The position numbers and the translations under genes were made by a program. From a virus: a stretch of 23,108 nucleotides of DNA. The notes below the pieces were generated by a model, which saw nothing but the letters and a program-made list of their open reading frames with translations, had not been told where the DNA came from and ran no database searches. Each line of letters starts with the position of its first letter. Positions within the stretch are counted from its first letter, which is position 1. Where the stretch lies: the IMG/VR virus record IMGVR_UViG_3300033146_002616, positions 1 to 23,108 of that record; one strand, given 5' to 3'. Shown here piece after piece: positions 14,238 through 23,108 of the stretch.

Positions 14238-17200
14238 TTACTTATTATCATAGTGCTTTTTATATTGCTCTATTTTTATAACATCATTTCCGTTTAAATC
14301 TTTTCCTTCTAATGCACTCATTGCAACATTATCCTTTAACACTAAAAGATCCATTAACTCTTCTAGTTTCTCTTCGCCTGTCATTGTACTACTTTCTTTT
14401 ATTGTTCTGGTTGCTTTATTTAGTACTTTCATGTATGAGTTCATTTTGTTTATATGCTTATTCTTTTCTTTGAACTCTTCTGTTTGTTCTTTTCCTTCTA
14501 TCTTGTATGTCGCTTTTTCTTTACCCATTTCATTTTTTAGATTGTAGAAATCTGTTACATATTGGCTTGAGATTAATGGATCTAAAACCATTCCTCTTAC
14601 AAACAACGCCTTGTTTAAGAAACCTTTTTCTACTGGAGTTGCTTTATCCCTTTTATCTATCATGTTTATGATTCCATCTATAGTATTTAACATTGATACC
14701 CCAGAAGAACCAAGTAATGACTTGACTGCATAATCAAACTTTCTAGGACTTACATTTAATGCTTTACCTACGCTTTTGCCTAGTTCTGATGTGTTTGTTC
14801 CATATTGATCTTTCTTTGCATAAAACTGTTCTTCATGTGGTGGGACAATAGGTCCATCATACCAGCTAGAATAATTTCCCTTAAGTTCCATACTTAATTT
14901 GTATGTGTGTGGTATCATATCTGGAGCCATCACGTTTAAAATTCTTTTTGCGTATTCGTTGTACGATTTTTTGTCATGTGTTCTTAAATACTCTAGCGTT
15001 CTCTCAACACCTGCACCGAATAATATTCCAAGCTCGTGAGGTTTTGGTATCTTAATCATTGTATCACCTATAAATATAATCCAATACATATCTTTAATAT
15101 ATAACGGTAATCTTTTATATTTTTCATCATTATCGTTGAGTAATTTAAGTACTATTGAAAAACTTGATATGTAAAATGCAGCTCTTGCTGCTACACCTAA
15201 TGGGTCTGTTACAATCGCTCTTGCTATTTTATCTGTACCTTGTATGTTTGCATTAAAGAATGGTATTAACCTGTTCAACTCTTTACTTACCCAGCCAGCA
15301 CGCATAAAATCTAATAATTCTCTTGTGTCAAGTGCAGCTTGCGTTACTGCATCGTTATGACTCCTTCCTTTTTTTATATTCTTATCATACGATTTGTGGA
15401 ATTCTCCCATTCTTGTTGAGTTCTCAACACCTTCATTAAGTGTCCTTAATAATTCAAGTGGTGATTTTATAACTTGTAATACTTTGTCTTTCTTATCTCT
15501 ATTATATAATTTTTTTGTGTCTTTCTTTATATAATCTCTATCAATAGATGCAATGGTATTGTTTAATGCACCAGCTGAAATAGCTTTATAATATAAATCG
15601 TCTTTCTTTATTTCTTTAATTAATCCATTTGTTGAATCTATAAAAGGTATAAACCCACTTTTAGAAAGTATTGCTGCTGCTATGGTGTCTCTTATTCCGT
15701 TCTTTGCTATAAATGTATCACTAAACTCTGTGGCACCTGTTCTAAGAAGCCTAGCTGGTAGCCCTAATACCTTCCCTATTGCTCCCATGTCTATTCCCCA
15801 TTCATCTGCTAAAGACTTATATAACTGTTTATCATGTATTTCATAATAAACTGGTTTACCATTTTCTAGTACCTTTATGATATTTTCATCATTTGAGTAC
15901 GAACCTTGTGTATATGTTTGTTCATTAGGTAATCCAGCAATGCCAAGCATAAATGCAATACTATCAGGCTCTAACTCTGTATTATCTTTTTTTAATTTCT
16001 TAACATATTCTTCTGTTAAATCTATCCCATATCTTTTAGATATAAGTCTTTTTAATTCTTCCCCTGTTATTGTTGATGACTTTATAGGGTTTGGTATTTT
16101 ATCAAAATACTTACCTGTGTTATGTTTATTATGTAAATCAAAGAATAATTTAAGTGCATTGTTTTTATCTATTACCTCATAAATAGCATAAGTATTTTTT
16201 ATAACACTTTCTAATGGATTAATGATGTCTCTTGAATCACCATATATTTGCTTAAAGGTGTGCATGCCTTTTGTACCACTTCCACCTTTTGAATCTTGAA
16301 CTCTTAAAAATGGCACATACGCTTTATTTAATTTCTTTATTTTTTTGTAAATTTCTTCTTGTAATACACCATATTCTACAGCAAGTTTAAGCATAGTGTC
16401 TTGAAAATTATATAATTCTTTTAATACCTTATTAAATGTTTGGTTATTCTCATATTCTTTTATCACTGCATTGAATTGCTCTGGTGTTGTTCCTGTCTCT
16501 ATATTCCTATAGTACAATTCTCTTGCTCTTAATGCTGTCGCATAATAAATAAACTCATCCATTATTTTTGCATTTTGCAATGGCTTAAGTATTTGATATA
16601 ATCCTTTCGTTAAAAACTCATCTGTTTTTGGATCAATTATTCCTCTTTCCATTGCTGCATGTAATTTACCTATAGCACTTGTTTTTGAAAGTCTTCTCAT
16701 TGTTACTGCATTAGTACTTGCTGGTATACTTTTAATATCTCCAACCATATCTTTATATGCTTTGTACATTGGAAAATCTGCATCAACACCAGCTGTATAC
16801 ACCCATGCAACTATTTCTTCTGCTGATGGTACATGTATTTCTGATTCGCCTTTTAATTGTACATTTGATGCGAATTGTTCAATGTCGGACATCTTATAAT
16901 ATACATCCATTATTCTTTTGACTTCACCTATAAACTCTTTTGTTATGTTGTCTTCTTCTATTATAGCTTCCATTTGTTTAAATGTATTTGGTGCAAGATT
17001 AAAAGCTTTCTGTTGGTCTTGTAAGTAGTATGAGAAAAATTCTGCTATCCCTTCTTTTACTATTTGGTTTCCACTGTAACTTTTTCTAGATGTTTTTAAC
17101 CCTAAATTATACAATTCTTTTCTTGCTTCTTTATTAGCTTTAATAAGAATGTTGTAATGTTTATCTAAGTAATGACCAACTTCGTGTAAAAGTGTGTCAA

Positions 17201-20180
17201 TGTTTTTCTTACTGTTTATTCTTATGATACCTGACTTTTTAAAGATGCCATACGCTTTTTCCCTAAATTTTCCTATTTTTACAGGAATGTCCGTATATTT
17301 TTCTATTATTTTGTATATATCCGTAAGTCTTACGGTGTTTCCTTTTCCTACACCTTTCCTGTTTTGTGTTTGTTTTATCTTCTTTTCTGGTCTATCTATT
17401 TTTTTGGCTGACGCTAATGTTTCTGATTCTGTACCTTTTTTATCTTTCTCTATTGACATTGCTTGCGTTGTATCTTCTTTATCGCTTAATTTATCTACTT
17501 CTTTTAATACCTCATTATATCTTTTTGTTGCCTCTTTTTTGTTTGATGTGTCAAAGAAAAACTTTCCATGCCAATATGAACCGTCATTTTTTGAAACAAT
17601 CGCTTTGACTTTTTCCCAGTTTTTACCTGTCAATCTCTTGTCTTTCTCTATTTCAAACTCATATATTCTTCCTTTTGTCTTTTCACTTACACCTTCTTTT
17701 AACTCCCCTATAACACTCTTATCTACATAATCAATTGTTGGTGCAGCGTTCTTTGGTTTTCTTAATCTTACTTTTTCTTTTGGTTTTGTTTTTTTAGTCT
17801 CAACTGTTTTAACTACTTCTTTTGTTTCGTTTTTTAAATTATTAAATTGATCTTCTGTTAAATTCTCTACACGTTCTATTATATTATCGATTGATAATTT
17901 GTTTGTTTTCCCATTATCTAAGAATCGCTGTAAATCCATAACAAGTTTTTCATACCTATTTTCTACGTGCTTACTTTTCCTTATTTTAGAAAGTTTGTTG
18001 TCATTATTCTTAAGTTCTCTGATTGTTAATTTGTTTAAAATATCTTTTATTTTTTCTTTATTTTTGATAATTGTCTCAACTTTGTTTTTAAACTCATCAA
18101 ATGTCTGCTCTTTTGATGGTTTTTCTAAAATGTTGATAATGTCTTTAGCCTGTTTTTTTGTGGTATTATTGATATTTTCAGGTATTATTTCTGTTTTTTT
18201 GGTATTTACCGTAATATCTCCTGTATCCATATTTTTAGATACGTTTTTAGCGTGCTTTTCTTTTCCTATATCTATATATCTGGTTTTACTAATATAGTCG
18301 CTATCTACTATTTCTTTTTCTGTTTTGGTGATGTCTTGTCCTTTTTCTGCCTGTTTTGATGATGTCTTGTCCTTCGTTATCTCGTATGTTGTCTTTATCT
18401 CATCAATGTCGGTTTCTTTATTATACGTCTTCTTAGTTGTGTATTTCACATTTAATCCATCAGAAGTAAACTCGCCATCTATTGTATCATCTTTTTCTTT
18501 ATCAAAAAACTCTGGATTCTTTTCTTTTATACTCTCACTCTTGGCTTTTTCTATCTTATCTTTCGATTTCTTATCTAACTTATCAAAGACTACTGTTTCT
18601 TTCTCTTCCTTTTTGCTTACATCAATAACAAGGTCTTTCTCACTCTTCCTTTTTGCTAAATCAAATCCTATTTGATCACCAGCATTAACATCTTCTTTTG
18701 TCTTTATCTTTTCTGCTTTAGTTTCTGCTCTTGCTCTATTTTTTTCTTGCTCTGTTAATTCTACAATTATTCCTTTTAACGCTTTTTCTACATTATTCTT
18801 TGTTGGTTTTGCAATTGCTCTTTTTGCATTGCTTACACCCATTCCTAGACCCATCATAAGCCAACCTGCTAAAGCACCTGTCCCACCTTCTTCTACAAAT
18901 GCTGTTAATTGATCAATAATACCTGGTATCTCTGAATCTTTATCTATTGTAAGCTTTCTAAGATATGGTTCAAGTACTGCACTCGTTCCTTCTCCTAAAA
19001 ACTCTTCAACACCATTCTTTACGAATGTTTTCCATGTCGCATTGCCTTTTAACGCTTTTGTTATGTTTTTAATAGGCAATAACTCTGTCCCTACTTCTAT
19101 TGCTGCATTGCCAAGACCATATAGCTCTTGATTGAATTTATTTGCTCCTGCAAGTTCTCCTGTTCTTTTCCCTGAACCATATGCAGTTGCTCCTATAAAT
19201 CCAAGCCCCGTTGCTTCCCCACCTAATAAAAATGGTAGCTGTGGTAATTGACCTGCCGCACCATAAATATATTTATCAGGACCTTCTAGGCTACTTGTTA
19301 TTGGTTCTGATATGGTTGCTCTATCTTGTTCGAGTCCTTCTATCATCTTAGAAAGCTTTTTATTTAATGGACTCTCATATGGATTGTACCCAAGTGCTTT
19401 TGTTGTATTTTCTATGTCTTGCTCTGATGGCAAAAATGCTCCATTTTCTGGTACAAATGTTTTGATTGCATTTAATGCACCTATATCAATATTTGACATG
19501 GTATCAAATAAAGATGCTCCTAGCTTTTGTGGTTCTGTATATCTTCTTTTGTCTTGTAGATTTCTAGATATTTCCTGACTGTCATCTAACACTTTATTAA
19601 TACTACCGTCCCATTGTTTTATTGTATTTTCTTTATTTGGTGGATTAGAAACATATCTTCTCATCTCTTCTTTGCCTCTATTTAAAAGGCTTTCTTTTTC
19701 TTTGTATTTTGCTATTACATTCCTATTTGCATTTTCATCTGAATATGTATTCTCGTTATCTTGTGTATACCCTCTCTCTTTTTGAGTTGTAATTCCTCTA
19801 TTTTTTTGACCAAAATCTATTTTAGGATTTACTAATATACTATCTAATCTTGAAATAGCTTTTGTTAGTCCATCATATTTATTTGTAAACATTGGATTTA
19901 TAGGCTGTGTCACTTCGTTATAAGACACTCCTGACGTTTTAGAAGGACTTCTGTAACTACCATACCCACCGTTATTGTAATTCGTCTTTTGGCTGTTATT
20001 CCTTAAATTGTATTTACTTACTACATTACTTTTAAAGTCTGTAACAGCGTTCTCTCCTATATCAATCATGTGCTGATACAACTTTCCTTTTGATGGATCA
20101 CTTAAATTTGAGATGGTTGAAAAGCCTGACTTTATTTGATTATATACTTCTTCTCCTGTGATTTCTTTTGTTCTTGTCAT
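14238..20180 (-). CDS. Giant polyvalent / ejection-type virion protein with internal zincin and LPD38-like region
   Basis: A 1980-residue multidomain protein. Residues 1-300 are polar, with Asn/Ser-rich linkers. About 305-350 and 428-450 are Gly-rich hydrophobic stretches (LPFLLGGEATGLGFIG; GALAGWLMMGLGMGVS) that could insert in membranes. About 480-940 is a Lys/Glu-rich, low-complexity arm. A zincin peptidase domain follows at about 950-1075, with HEVGH (999-1003) and a downstream EGIAEFF (from 1043) that can give the third ligand. Residues about 1460-1690 contain ARLLRTGATEFSDTFIAKNG, NGIRDTIAAAILSKSG and IPFFNANIQGTDKIARA (1639-1655), the pattern of large polyvalent protein-associated domain LPD38. 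The family is proposed to be packaged in the head and injected with DNA. AAGGTGG precedes ATG 20180 by 7 nt, and the promoter at 20216-20244 makes it the first late gene. Confidence 0.85.
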   Translation of the reverse strand: MTRTKEITGEEVYNQIKSGFSTISNLSDPSKGKLYQHMIDIGENAVTDFKSNVVSKYNLRNNSQKTNYNNGGYGSYRSPSKTSGVSYNEVTQPINPMFTNKYDGLTKAISRLDSILVNPKIDFGQKNRGITTQKERGYTQDNENTYSDENANRNVIAKYKEKESLLNRGKEEMRRYVSNPPNKENTIKQWDGSINKVLDDSQEISRNLQDKRRYTEPQKLGASLFDTMSNIDIGALNAIKTFVPENGAFLPSEQDIENTTKALGYNPYESPLNKKLSKMIEGLEQDRATISEPITSSLEGPDKYIYGAAGQLPQLPFLLGGEATGLGFIGATAYGSGKRTGELAGANKFNQELYGLGNAAIEVGTELLPIKNITKALKGNATWKTFVKNGVEEFLGEGTSAVLEPYLRKLTIDKDSEIPGIIDQLTAFVEEGGTGALAGWLMMGLGMGVSNAKRAIAKPTKNNVEKALKGIIVELTEQEKNRARAETKAEKIKTKEDVNAGDQIGFDLAKRKSEKDLVIDVSKKEEKETVVFDKLDKKSKDKIEKAKSESIKEKNPEFFDKEKDDTIDGEFTSDGLNVKYTTKKTYNKETDIDEIKTTYEITKDKTSSKQAEKGQDITKTEKEIVDSDYISKTRYIDIGKEKHAKNVSKNMDTGDITVNTKKTEIIPENINNTTKKQAKDIINILEKPSKEQTFDEFKNKVETIIKNKEKIKDILNKLTIRELKNNDNKLSKIRKSKHVENRYEKLVMDLQRFLDNGKTNKLSIDNIIERVENLTEDQFNNLKNETKEVVKTVETKKTKPKEKVRLRKPKNAAPTIDYVDKSVIGELKEGVSEKTKGRIYEFEIEKDKRLTGKNWEKVKAIVSKNDGSYWHGKFFFDTSNKKEATKRYNEVLKEVDKLSDKEDTTQAMSIEKDKKGTESETLASAKKIDRPEKKIKQTQNRKGVGKGNTVRLTDIYKIIEKYTDIPVKIGKFREKAYGIFKKSGIIRINSKKNIDTLLHEVGHYLDKHYNILIKANKEARKELYNLGLKTSRKSYSGNQIVKEGIAEFFSYYLQDQQKAFNLAPNTFKQMEAIIEEDNITKEFIGEVKRIMDVYYKMSDIEQFASNVQLKGESEIHVPSAEEIVAWVYTAGVDADFPMYKAYKDMVGDIKSIPASTNAVTMRRLSKTSAIGKLHAAMERGIIDPKTDEFLTKGLYQILKPLQNAKIMDEFIYYATALRARELYYRNIETGTTPEQFNAVIKEYENNQTFNKVLKELYNFQDTMLKLAVEYGVLQEEIYKKIKKLNKAYVPFLRVQDSKGGSGTKGMHTFKQIYGDSRDIINPLESVIKNTYAIYEVIDKNNALKLFFDLHNKHNTGKYFDKIPNPIKSSTITGEELKRLISKRYGIDLTEEYVKKLKKDNTELEPDSIAFMLGIAGLPNEQTYTQGSYSNDENIIKVLENGKPVYYEIHDKQLYKSLADEWGIDMGAIGKVLGLPARLLRTGATEFSDTFIAKNGIRDTIAAAILSKSGFIPFIDSTNGLIKEIKKDDLYYKAISAGALNNTIASIDRDYIKKDTKKLYNRDKKDKVLQVIKSPLELLRTLNEGVENSTRMGEFHKSYDKNIKKGRSHNDAVTQAALDTRELLDFMRAGWVSKELNRLIPFFNANIQGTDKIARAIVTDPLGVAARAAFYISSFSIVLKLLNDNDEKYKRLPLYIKDMYWIIFIGDTMIKIPKPHELGILFGAGVERTLEYLRTHDKKSYNEYAKRILNVMAPDMIPHTYKLSMELKGNYSSWYDGPIVPPHEEQFYAKKDQYGTNTSELGKSVGKALNVSPRKFDYAVKSLLGSSGVSMLNTIDGIINMIDKRDKATPVEKGFLNKALFVRGMVLDPLISSQYVTDFYNLKNEMGKEKATYKIEGKEQTEEFKEKNKHINKMNSYMKVLNKATRTIKESSTMTGEEKLEELMDLLVLKDNVAMSALEGKDLNGNDVIKIEQYKKHYDNK

Positions 20181-20215
20181 GAATATACCACCTTGTACGT
20201 ATTTACTATATTTTG

Positions 20216-20244
20216 ATTATACAACATACTCATTAATTTGTCTA
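20216..20244 (-). promoter_or_regulatory. Sigma-70-like promoter of the late operon
   Basis: On the minus strand -35 TAGACA (20244-20239), a 17-bp spacer and a perfect -10 TATAAT (20221-20216). Transcription should start near 20209, leaving a leader of about 28 nt before the giant gene and its AAGGTGG site. No other good promoter is seen downstream, so it probably drives the whole set of genes to its left. Confidence 0.8.
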
Positions 20245-20246
20245 AT

Positions 20247-20286
20247 AAAAAAAGACATCTGTTTTTTTATATAACAAATGCCTTTT
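20247..20286 (-). terminator. Intrinsic terminator upstream of the late promoter
   Basis: Minus-strand RNA can form a 14-bp stem AAAAGGCAUUUGUU / AACAGAUGUCUUUU with a 9-nt loop, complete if two G-U pairs are allowed, followed by a run of seven U. On the plus strand the same two positions are A-C mismatches, so the signal points leftwards. It would stop transcripts coming from the right just before the late promoter. Confidence 0.7.
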
Positions 20287-20325
20287 CCTATAGAAACTAT
20301 ATGAAAGGAGATGAAAAATGAACCT
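20247..20325 (-). ncRNA. Candidate small RNA of about 79 nt with anti-ribosome-binding-site sequence
   Basis: The stretch from the predicted start (near 20325) to the U-run (20247) has the layout of a bacterial sRNA. It has an unpaired 5' part containing CAUCUCCUUUCA, a small hairpin UAUAG-UUU-CUAUA (20301-20289) and a terminator hairpin. The 5' part is complementary to GAAAGGAGAU, the exact ribosome binding site of the tail-fibre gene (408-417) and nearly that of the endolysin. Expression and targets are inferred; the promoter and terminator are what is seen. Confidence 0.4.
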
Positions 20326-20338
20326 AATACTATTATAA
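20318..20338 (+). other. Plus-strand ribosome binding site with a six-codon frame
   Basis: GAAAGGAGAT is followed 5 nt later by ATG and the frame MNLILL, then TAA. It looks like a leader peptide or the remnant of a gene start, and lies opposite the candidate sRNA. No convincing plus-strand promoter was found just upstream. It may exist only because the sRNA on the other strand is complementary to ribosome binding sites. Confidence 0.2.
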
Positions 20339-20361
20339 CACATTTTTGTTTAAAATGACAA
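20332..20361 (-). promoter_or_regulatory. Extended -10 promoter ahead of the terminator
   Basis: On the minus strand TTGTCA (20361-20356), an 18-bp spacer and TATAAT (20337-20332), with an extended -10 TGTTATAATAG. The same 11 bases occur at the promoter of the three-gene regulator operon (22485-22490). No open reading frame lies between it and the terminator about 80 nt downstream. Confidence 0.55.
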
Positions 20362-20449
20362 TATTGTTTCTTTGTAAATAAATAGCCTTTAACTCTCGGT
20401 TGAAAAAAGTTAAAAGCTAGATATTGATGGGTATCAGCCACCAGACAAC

Positions 20450-20477
20450 ATATATGCCATGCCTAGATATATGCCAT
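20450..20477. repeat. 11-bp direct repeat, 17-bp period
   Basis: ATATATGCCAT occurs at 20450-20460 and again at 20467-20477. The spacing is a little under two helical turns. It lies in gene-free DNA left of the G-tract and could be an operator pair, or part of an RNA leader. Confidence 0.5.
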
Positions 20478-20487
20478 CATGACTATA

Positions 20488-20500
20488 AGGGGGGGGAGAT
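20488..20500 (+). repeat. G8 motif, copy 1 of a 13-bp inverted pair
   Basis: AGGGGGGGGAGAT on the plus strand. A perfect copy in opposite orientation is at 22008-22020. This copy is not followed by a nearby start codon with an open frame. Confidence 0.6.
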
Positions 20501-20610
20501 TTTAAACTAATATAAGTATACCATATGTAATTGATTATTGCAATACCTTTTATATAACTATTAGCTATAATGCTAAATATAAATATAACTTTTTATTATA
20601 TGAATAACCC
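20501..20610. other. AT-rich spacer
   Basis: A hand count gives about 21% G+C for 20501-20640. I see no gene in it, and no -10 element here is paired with a credible -35. It separates the repeats and G-tract from the promoter of the plus-strand RNA. Confidence 0.6.
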
Positions 20611-20639
20611 TTGCAATTATTTCCTGTCTGTTCTATACT
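20611..20639 (+). promoter_or_regulatory. Candidate promoter of the plus-strand structured RNA
   Basis: TTGCAA (20611-20616), a 17-bp spacer and TATACT (20634-20639). The match is moderate (4 of 6 and 5 of 6), but the spacing is ideal and the GC-rich structured block begins about 35 nt downstream. The start of transcription would be near 20646. Confidence 0.5.
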
Positions 20640-20645
20640 TAATAT

Positions 20646-21165
20646 AAATAACTTCATACAAAATGAGATATTTGATATCTACGGTTTTCTTGCGTTGGCT
20701 TCCCGTATTATAATTAAGCCTTGGGTTGAGATGTGCCGCTGCAATAAATCGTCTCGGTGATTTATATAGGCTACATACTATCTGTTGCCGTCAGTGGAGT
20801 TTGGAGTTTACTCTTCACGTTAAATAATAAATGCTCGGATTTGGGTTGTGCCAGTAGGTTATACTACGGATACTTGAACTGCTTGATATATGGATGGCAC
20901 CGTATAAAGGTTCTCGCTGATTAGATTCTTGATCAGACCATGTAGCTTTTTTTTCTATGATTTCTATAGTTAAAATCTGGTTTTCTTTTTGAAATGAGTA
21001 GGATAACTATGTCGAAAATCGAAAGTCTTCTCTTCCTTTAGAAAAATAAAAAATAAAAAATTAATCCTCGGTTTTTATTATAACGTAGACGCAAGTGTAC
21101 TTCTTGTGGACTACAAAAGTATTTCGCTTTATGAAATGCTTAAACTGTATTTAGCTAAAGATACC
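20646..21165 (+). ncRNA. Candidate structured non-coding RNA
   Basis: No open frame, yet 20681-20820 has about 44% G+C by hand count against about 21% just upstream. Helices on the plus strand include ATAAATC/GATTTAT (20744-20765), GTGGAG/CTTCAC (20794-20818), GTGCCA/TGGCAC (20848-20900) enclosing GTAG/CTAC (20854-20867), and CTGATTAG/TTGATCAG (20917-20936). A long-range AGGCTACAT/ATGTAGCTT (20768-20776 with 20940-20948) closes this domain. Three more hairpins follow at 21085-21114, 21117-21141 and 21147-21164. Seven G-U pairs in these helices fit only plus-strand RNA. The 3' end is either T8 at 20947-20954 or beyond 21164. The known class is not recognised; size and phage setting recall ROOL- or GOLLD-type large RNAs, without any sequence match claimed. 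Confidence 0.55.
20909..20954 (+). terminator. Possible plus-strand terminator within the RNA region
   Basis: The hairpin GGT-bulge-CTGATTAG/TTGATCAG-ACC is followed by ATGTAGC and eight T. The base of the long-range helix (20768-20776 with 20940-20948) ends exactly at the T-run, so the U-tract is preceded by paired RNA. If used, the RNA is about 310 nt long and the hairpins further right belong to something else. Confidence 0.45.
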
Positions 21166-21218
21166 CAATAACAAAAAGATTCCACTAGTAAATACAATAC
21201 TTTATTAATCGTTTACTA

Positions 21219-21233
21219 TAGTATAATATACTA
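21219..21233. promoter_or_regulatory. 15-bp palindrome, possible operator
   Basis: TAGTATAATATACTA has 7-bp arms around one central base, and a further ATACT half-site follows at 21236-21240. It covers a TATAAT on the plus strand, but I find no matching -35. It lies about 40 bp after the end of the XRE regulator gene, a plausible binding site for that protein. Confidence 0.35.
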
Positions 21234-21270
21234 ATATACTGGCTAGCTAAATATATATCTCTATAAACAT

Positions 21271-21624
21271 CTACTCTAACTCACTCTCTATCTTATCTAC
21301 TAAATCATTTATCATTAATAATTCCTTATCTGTTAATAATTCACTGACAGTTATTAATCTATATATCGCCTTAATCTGTACAATCTTACTGTTAGGTACA
21401 AATATATTAAATCTCCTGCTGTCAAGCGTTAAAGCAAGTCTAAGCTCGTACTCGTCTACACCACAAAATATTAAACTGTCTATGATCCATTCGGCTTTCC
21501 TGTAACCATTCTCTATGCCAGATATACAAGACTGGGCTACATTCATACGCCTTGCTAACTCCTTTTGGTCAATACCTTCTCTTTTCCTGAACTTCTTGAC
21601 TACATCACCATATCTGCTAAACAT
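21271..21624 (-). CDS. XRE-family helix-turn-helix transcriptional regulator
   Basis: A protein of 117 residues. The N-terminal 60 residues form an XRE/Cro-CI DNA-binding domain: VVKKFRKREGIDQKELARRM, then NVAQSCISGIENGYRKAEW, where the recognition helix follows QKELA and ends at ISGIENG. The C-terminal half is mostly helical and charged (SELLTDKELLMINDLVDKIE), suited to dimer formation; there is no LexA-type peptidase. GGAG lies 8 nt before ATG 21624 and the gene overlaps the membrane protein gene by 8 bp. In a phage this could be a repressor, a Cro-like switch or a late-gene regulator. With no integrase visible, lysogeny cannot be claimed. Confidence 0.88.
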   Translation of the reverse strand: MFSRYGDVVKKFRKREGIDQKELARRMNVAQSCISGIENGYRKAEWIIDSLIFCGVDEYELRLALTLDSRRFNIFVPNSKIVQIKAIYRLITVSELLTDKELLMINDLVDKIESELE

Positions 21625-22580: not shown

Positions 22581-22860
22581 GAAAATGTTTCCTGCTAAAA
22601 AAAAATATATTTCTGACTTGCTATATTCTAAAACCACTTTATTTATAAATCTATATAAATGATTAGCTATACTACTATATTAACACATTATAAGACCTTG
22701 TATCCCTAACCGTGTGCCTTTCCTTGTAATGCCTATGAAAACAGTCGCATGGTAACTATATTACGCTTGTGGAACGCCCTATAAATACTTACTGTGCTAT
22801 GGATAAGATGGGTTGCCGACTTGTGAAAATTAGGGGCGTATTTTAAATATGGGGTATTAT
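22581..22860. other. Gene-free stretch
   Basis: No frame with a start signal was found. A short direct repeat, CCTTGTA, occurs twice near 22696 and 22723. Apart from a few -10-like ATTATA elements without -35 partners I see nothing in it. Confidence 0.5.
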
Positions 22861-22907
22861 ATATATAAAGAGAAGGCAAAACGGTGCATAGGGGGGGTAT
22901 GCCGTAC

Positions 22908-22933
22908 CAGACACACGCATGCACATATAGAAC
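22908..22933 (+). repeat. Imperfect direct repeat R1
   Basis: CAGACACACGCATGCACA followed by TATAGAA. It matches R2 at 22990-23018 with two substitutions in the CAG-to-GCACA part and a 4-bp indel. Confidence 0.5.
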
Positions 22934-22989
22934 GGACACTACACCAGTATATCCAGATATTACAATATACTACAAATAATAAATACACC

Positions 22990-23018
22990 CAGTCACACGC
23001 AGGCACACGTATATAGAA
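22990..23018 (+). repeat. Imperfect direct repeat R2
   Basis: CAGTCACACGCAGGCACACG followed by TATATAGAA. It is the partner of R1, 82 bp further right, and is followed by the G6 tract. Confidence 0.5.
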
Positions 23019-23108
23019 TGAGGGGGGCACACAGGGTTTTGTTAAAACAATCGCCAGAGAAACACCAGATGTAGCAATAGACGAACATATGTTCCCCAGC
23101 TAATCGTT

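Follow-up and report, generated by a model that had tools for sequence, protein, structure and literature searches.

The 520-nt block at positions 20646 to 21165 of the uncultivated phage record IMGVR_UViG_3300033146_002616 constitutes a true noncoding locus. Of the explanations considered, the likeliest, though to be taken only tentatively, is that it encodes a plus-strand noncoding RNA whose class is unassigned. The specific evidence for a large ornate plus-strand RNA, as proposed in an earlier note on this DNA, fails controls, and RNA-level signals are clearest not within the block but to its left, on the minus strand between 20216 and 20485.

The window, i.e., the whole stretch of DNA that was analysed (positions 1-23,108 of the record), carries tightly packed predicted genes, all of them on the minus strand, comprising structural and packaging genes, an amidase, a subtilase and a large polyvalent protein. 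The block occupies the right half of an intergenic gap of 1,090 nt (20181-21270) which separates two minus-strand operons, all the remaining intergenic gaps in the window being of 90 nt at most. On the left, the gap is bordered by the gene of the large polyvalent protein (14238-20180, minus strand, 1980 aa, LPD38 domain; Pfam PF18857, E 2e-33; phrog_9854), which is the first of the structural operon and has its start codon at 20180. On the right, it is bordered by the gene of an XRE-family helix-turn-helix protein (21271-21624, minus strand, 117 aa; Pfam HTH_3, E 5.5e-08), the last gene of the upstream operon, with its stop at 21271. The terminase and the portal show about 21-35% amino-acid identity to those of known phages, and the cultured relatives are all distant.

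The longest ORF within the block is of 55 aa, and the 3-base periodicity in the windows starting from 20601 to 20851 ranges from 0.3 to 0.7, below the 5th percentile of the gene windows taken as a yardstick (1.3, with a median of 3.8). A search of the six frames of the block gave no PHROGs match at E ≤ 1, and the earlier description of the block as gene-free was thus borne out. The lack of periodicity and of protein matches, along with a gap of such length in a window where gaps are otherwise short, speaks for an RNA gene. A decayed or frameshifted protein gene would suit the length of the block, which is that of a small gene, and the G+C content of its left part, which is not under gene level. 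However, this explanation is highly improbable and was dropped, the block being devoid of codon periodicity in every window and of family matches in all six frames.

Base composition provides the strongest general case, albeit an indirect one, both for the presence of an RNA gene and for its location on the plus strand. The G+C content is 0.390 in the left 300 nt of the block (20646-20945), 0.277 in the right 220 nt (20946-21165) and 0.199 in the flanking stretch 20500-20645, so that the claim of a G+C content about twice that of the AT-rich left flank holds for the left part of the block and not for the right one. A G+C-enriched core (20670-20945) reaches 0.406, compared to 0.329 in the genes, which places it at the 99th percentile of same-size coding windows. 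On the plus strand of this core G (0.24) exceeds C (0.17), with a G-C skew larger than in every same-size coding window. As a control we used a ROOL RNA from plasmid pMP118, the identity of which its Rfam model confirmed; this RNA has a similar composition, with a G+C content of 0.398 against 0.322 in its AT-rich flanks and G (0.23) in excess over C (0.17) on the transcribed strand. Where long intergenic regions of elevated G+C content occur in compact AT-rich genomes, they contain RNA genes for the most part, or at least an excess of them (PMC2704228). What assigns the candidate RNA at 20646-21165 to the plus strand is this G > C composition together with the hairpins at its 3′ end described below. 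The missing depletion of CpG was also considered as a mark of RNA and dropped, as the noncoding gaps of the relatives are alike (pooled 0.91).

The earlier note had further described many nested and long-range helices in the block, found by eye. When compared with dinucleotide shuffles, the minimum free energy (MFE) of the whole block was no better than that of the shuffles on either strand (z -0.29 for plus and -0.17 for minus). The core, with z +1.4 on the plus and +0.8 on the minus strand, showed no structure excess, and each of the 120-nt plus-strand windows starting from 20620 to 20980 scored -0.35 or above. Helices of at least 9 bp and of at least 10 bp were rarer in the block than in the shuffles (z -2.3 and -2.4, respectively), and the base-pair distance (z +1.0, compared to -1.3 for the ROOL control) indicated a fold less defined than those of the shuffles. 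The description of abundant helices was therefore not upheld, the energy being at shuffle level and the long helices below chance. The same applies to the statement that G-U pairs favour the plus strand, since the plus fold contains 27 of them against 26.7 in the shuffles and the energy difference between the plus and the minus strand is -25.2 kcal/mol against -24.8. The preference of the fold for the plus strand is thus due to composition, since G and T abound on this strand and make G-U pairs available there. In a G/T-rich block, helices read by eye are always plentiful and always favour the G/T-rich strand.

The same energy test was applied to sequences of known nature. The ROOL RNA of pMP118 scored z -1.1 to -1.25, one of the long RNAs of phage K detected by RNA-seq scored -1.9 and the two halves of the other -4.9 and -2.3, and random coding windows of the phage studied here ranged from -2.7 to +0.7. 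An energy no better than that of dinucleotide shuffles, as observed for the block, was among the outcomes named in the earlier note as refuting its proposal, but the test is weak, because a true ROOL RNA scores just -1.1. The near-zero z of the block lowers the case for a structured RNA without closing it, and folding energy by itself neither supports nor excludes a large RNA.

Structure in excess of the shuffles was observed on the plus strand at the 3′ end of the block, where three tandem hairpins (21085-21114, 21117-21141 and 21147-21164) follow one another over 21085-21164. The last 82 nt (21084-21165) gave z -2.93 on the plus strand vs. +0.36 on the minus strand, and the mean base-pair distance of the hairpins had a z of -2.2. 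The middle hairpin includes two G-U pairs that are broken on the minus strand. These plus-only hairpins, like the ROOL-like G+C content and G > C composition, count in favour of an RNA gene; as a sign of RNA they are suggestive only, because the segment was selected after some 70 overlapping windows had been scanned. In 371 kb of sequence from relatives, a covariance model built on these hairpins had no match.

As for the ends of a plus-strand transcript, the promoter-like TTGCAA-17-TATACT pointed out previously does exist at 20611-20639, and its match of 9/12 is at chance level, since 40% of the shuffles of 20581-20680 contained a promoter at least as good. Similarly, the T8 run reported inside the block is present, and it is not part of a standard terminator, lying about 10 nt past the nearest hairpin. 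No plus-strand terminator was found in the scan of 20100-21400. The lack of a credible plus-strand promoter and of a plus-strand terminator stands against an RNA gene, together with the shuffle-level MFE, the poorly defined fold and the absence of a homologue.

The search for known RNA families gave no support to the resemblance to ROOL and GOLLD put forward in the earlier note. With cmscan against the 4227 Rfam families, including 6S, RNase P, tmRNA, introns and riboswitches, no match above the gathering score was obtained, and no relevant match appeared at a permissive E-value. The ROOL model (RF03087), searched directly, matched nothing in the window at E ≤ 10, while the same search found ROOL in pMP118 at 130 bits. 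The GOLLD model (RF02032), searched directly, gave no match at E ≤ 10 either, the positive control of these model searches being a ROOL RNA. No tmRNA and no tRNA gene was found by ARAGORN in the 23-kb record, which is a fragment.

A blastn search with the block among 50,697 phages and 72,556 plasmids gave only short matches at chance level; a T4-like dam match (E 6e-4) sits at 20317-20369, in AT-rich sequence to the left of the block. Relatives were sought among viral contigs and prokaryote genomes through the large protein, its neighbours, the terminase and the portal. This search yielded the phage G004, at 46-60% amino-acid identity, along with several phages at about 45%, and a counterpart of the block was not detected in any of them. 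In G004, the nearest relative, the capsid, portal and tail proteins are at 60% amino-acid identity, and the region upstream of the large protein is organized differently; its gaps and those of G001 and G005 showed no similarity to the block when assessed against shuffles. This nearest relative (L030, L031 and L032, i.e., G004, and L043 and L048) occurs in two IMG/VR samples, 3300025018 and 3300008255, with 100% identity over about 30 kb. In this phage the large polyvalent protein has as its counterpart (L032:1159-11937) an open frame of some 3,592 aa, almost double the length of that in the window. In distant relatives, a single tRNA gene (Ser or Thr) is located just upstream of the large terminase (L002:8726-8812, L004:9589-9661, L013:9858-9928), which the window lacks. 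A stretch beside the terminase conserved in the relatives L004 and L015, considered as a possible RNA, turned out to hold a short ORF and a terminator and not an RNA.

A special case of a plus-strand RNA gene would be a new class of large ornate phage RNA of about 520 nt, comparable to ROOL and GOLLD in size and setting, with an elaborate and perhaps multimeric fold. The length, the phage setting and the composition of the block come near to those of ROOL, which is encoded by phages or prophages and measures about 540-570 nt. Moreover, folding of a single sequence does not see everything, as illustrated by the z of just -1.1 of ROOL itself. However, the block has no match to the model that defines ROOL, nor to GOLLD or any other Rfam model, its long helices are below chance and no homologue of it was found. 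ROOL is further characterized by covarying helices P1-P19 with pseudoknots. ROOL also often lies near tRNA islands (PMC12286853), and no tRNA gene, frequent in the surroundings of both ROOL and GOLLD, was found by ARAGORN nearby in the 23-kb fragment. GOLLD is likewise large, phage-encoded and noncoding, as the candidate RNA would be, but many of its members exceed 800 nt and share a conserved 3′ region (PMC12286853). The lnc001 and lnc002 of Staphylococcus phage K (PMC9241854) resemble the block in being long and intergenic in an AT-rich phage; unlike the block, they were detected by RNA-seq, fold better than shuffles and lie beside tRNA genes. Taken together, we consider an ornate RNA of this kind improbable.

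The minus strand to the left of the block carries much stronger signals. The hairpin at 20383-20419, with a T-rich tail, is an intrinsic-terminator-like element recognized by both the terminator scan and the fold, and it is the sole site of this type found in 20100-21400. It likely halts minus-strand transcription that reads through from the XRE operon. Immediately upstream of it there is a predicted long hairpin (20435-20485) that includes the direct repeat ATATATGCCAT (20450 and 20467), and the minus-strand fold of 20370-20490, which covers these twin hairpins, had a z of -3.9. Downstream, a promoter-like TTGTCA-18-TATAAT with a TG extension matches at 11/12 (20361-20332), and it is followed just downstream by a stable hairpin with A-tract and U-tract arms (20242-20293). 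The minus-strand fold of 20236-20326 had a z of -5.2, none of 200 shuffles being equally stable. A second promoter-like site, TAGACA-17-TATAAT (20244-20216), also at 11/12, lies 36 nt ahead of the start codon (20180) and probably marks where the operon of the large polyvalent protein starts; in the entire window there are three promoter-like sites at 11/12, and these are two of them.

From this arrangement we infer a cassette in which read-through of the XRE operon would end at 20383, the first promoter would give either a short transcript of about 80 nt or a leader subject to attenuation, and the second would drive the structural operon. The hairpin at 20242-20293 would act as a terminator or an attenuator, possibly ending the ~80-nt minus-strand RNA. 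This predicted RNA between the two promoters carries CAUCUCCUUUC, which resembles an anti-Shine-Dalgarno sequence. As judged from sequence, it would be a better small-RNA candidate than the block itself.

Given that no terminator-like site occurs between the XRE stop at 21271 and 20419-20383, the block could also belong to the minus-strand transcript of the XRE operon, as a long 3′ untranslated region extending to the terminator at 20383-20419 and perhaps carrying a minus-strand regulatory RNA. The twin minus-strand hairpins at this terminator are in agreement with such a transcript. Nevertheless, the explanation is unlikely, as the minus strand of the block folds at shuffle level, its G-C skew runs counter to that of every minus-strand gene and the hairpins of 21084-21165 fail to form on this strand.

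A reading that remains quite conceivable, if doubtful, is that the block is noncoding DNA without a structured RNA gene, such as a spacer with a regulatory role, a site of replication or of packaging, or acquired DNA, located upstream of the promoter-terminator-promoter cassette driving the structural operon. The absence of a structure excess on both strands is in line with this, as are the strong minus-strand regulatory signals adjoining the block, the very AT-rich stretch at 20500-20645 and a second noncoding G+C-rich stretch beyond the XRE operon. This second stretch (22690-23108) has a G+C content of 0.415, no codon periodicity and runs of seven and six G; it is ended by the record edge and folds no better than shuffles. 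On the other hand, a search for iterons or long direct repeats, by which a replication origin would be recognized, found none, a useless stretch of 500 nt would be unusual in a genome so compact, and the three plus-only hairpins also count against this reading.

A gene for a plus-strand noncoding RNA is the reading we tentatively place first. Such an RNA would span roughly 20646-21165 and end in the three small hairpins. Its transcription would run counter to that of every adjacent gene, making it antisense to read-through transcripts, if any, of the XRE operon. Transcription of the block, its strand, start and end, and the function of the product are all inferred from the sequence; our guess, weakly held, is that the RNA may regulate the infection cycle, acting on the transcript of the XRE operon by base-pairing or as an antisense RNA. 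It is rather improbable that the block represents a new class of large RNA in this lineage of uncultivated phages, running opposite to all the neighbouring genes and with a complex fold missed by single-sequence prediction. If the block is transcribed, it would add one more phage RNA to the short list of large ones with unknown functions.
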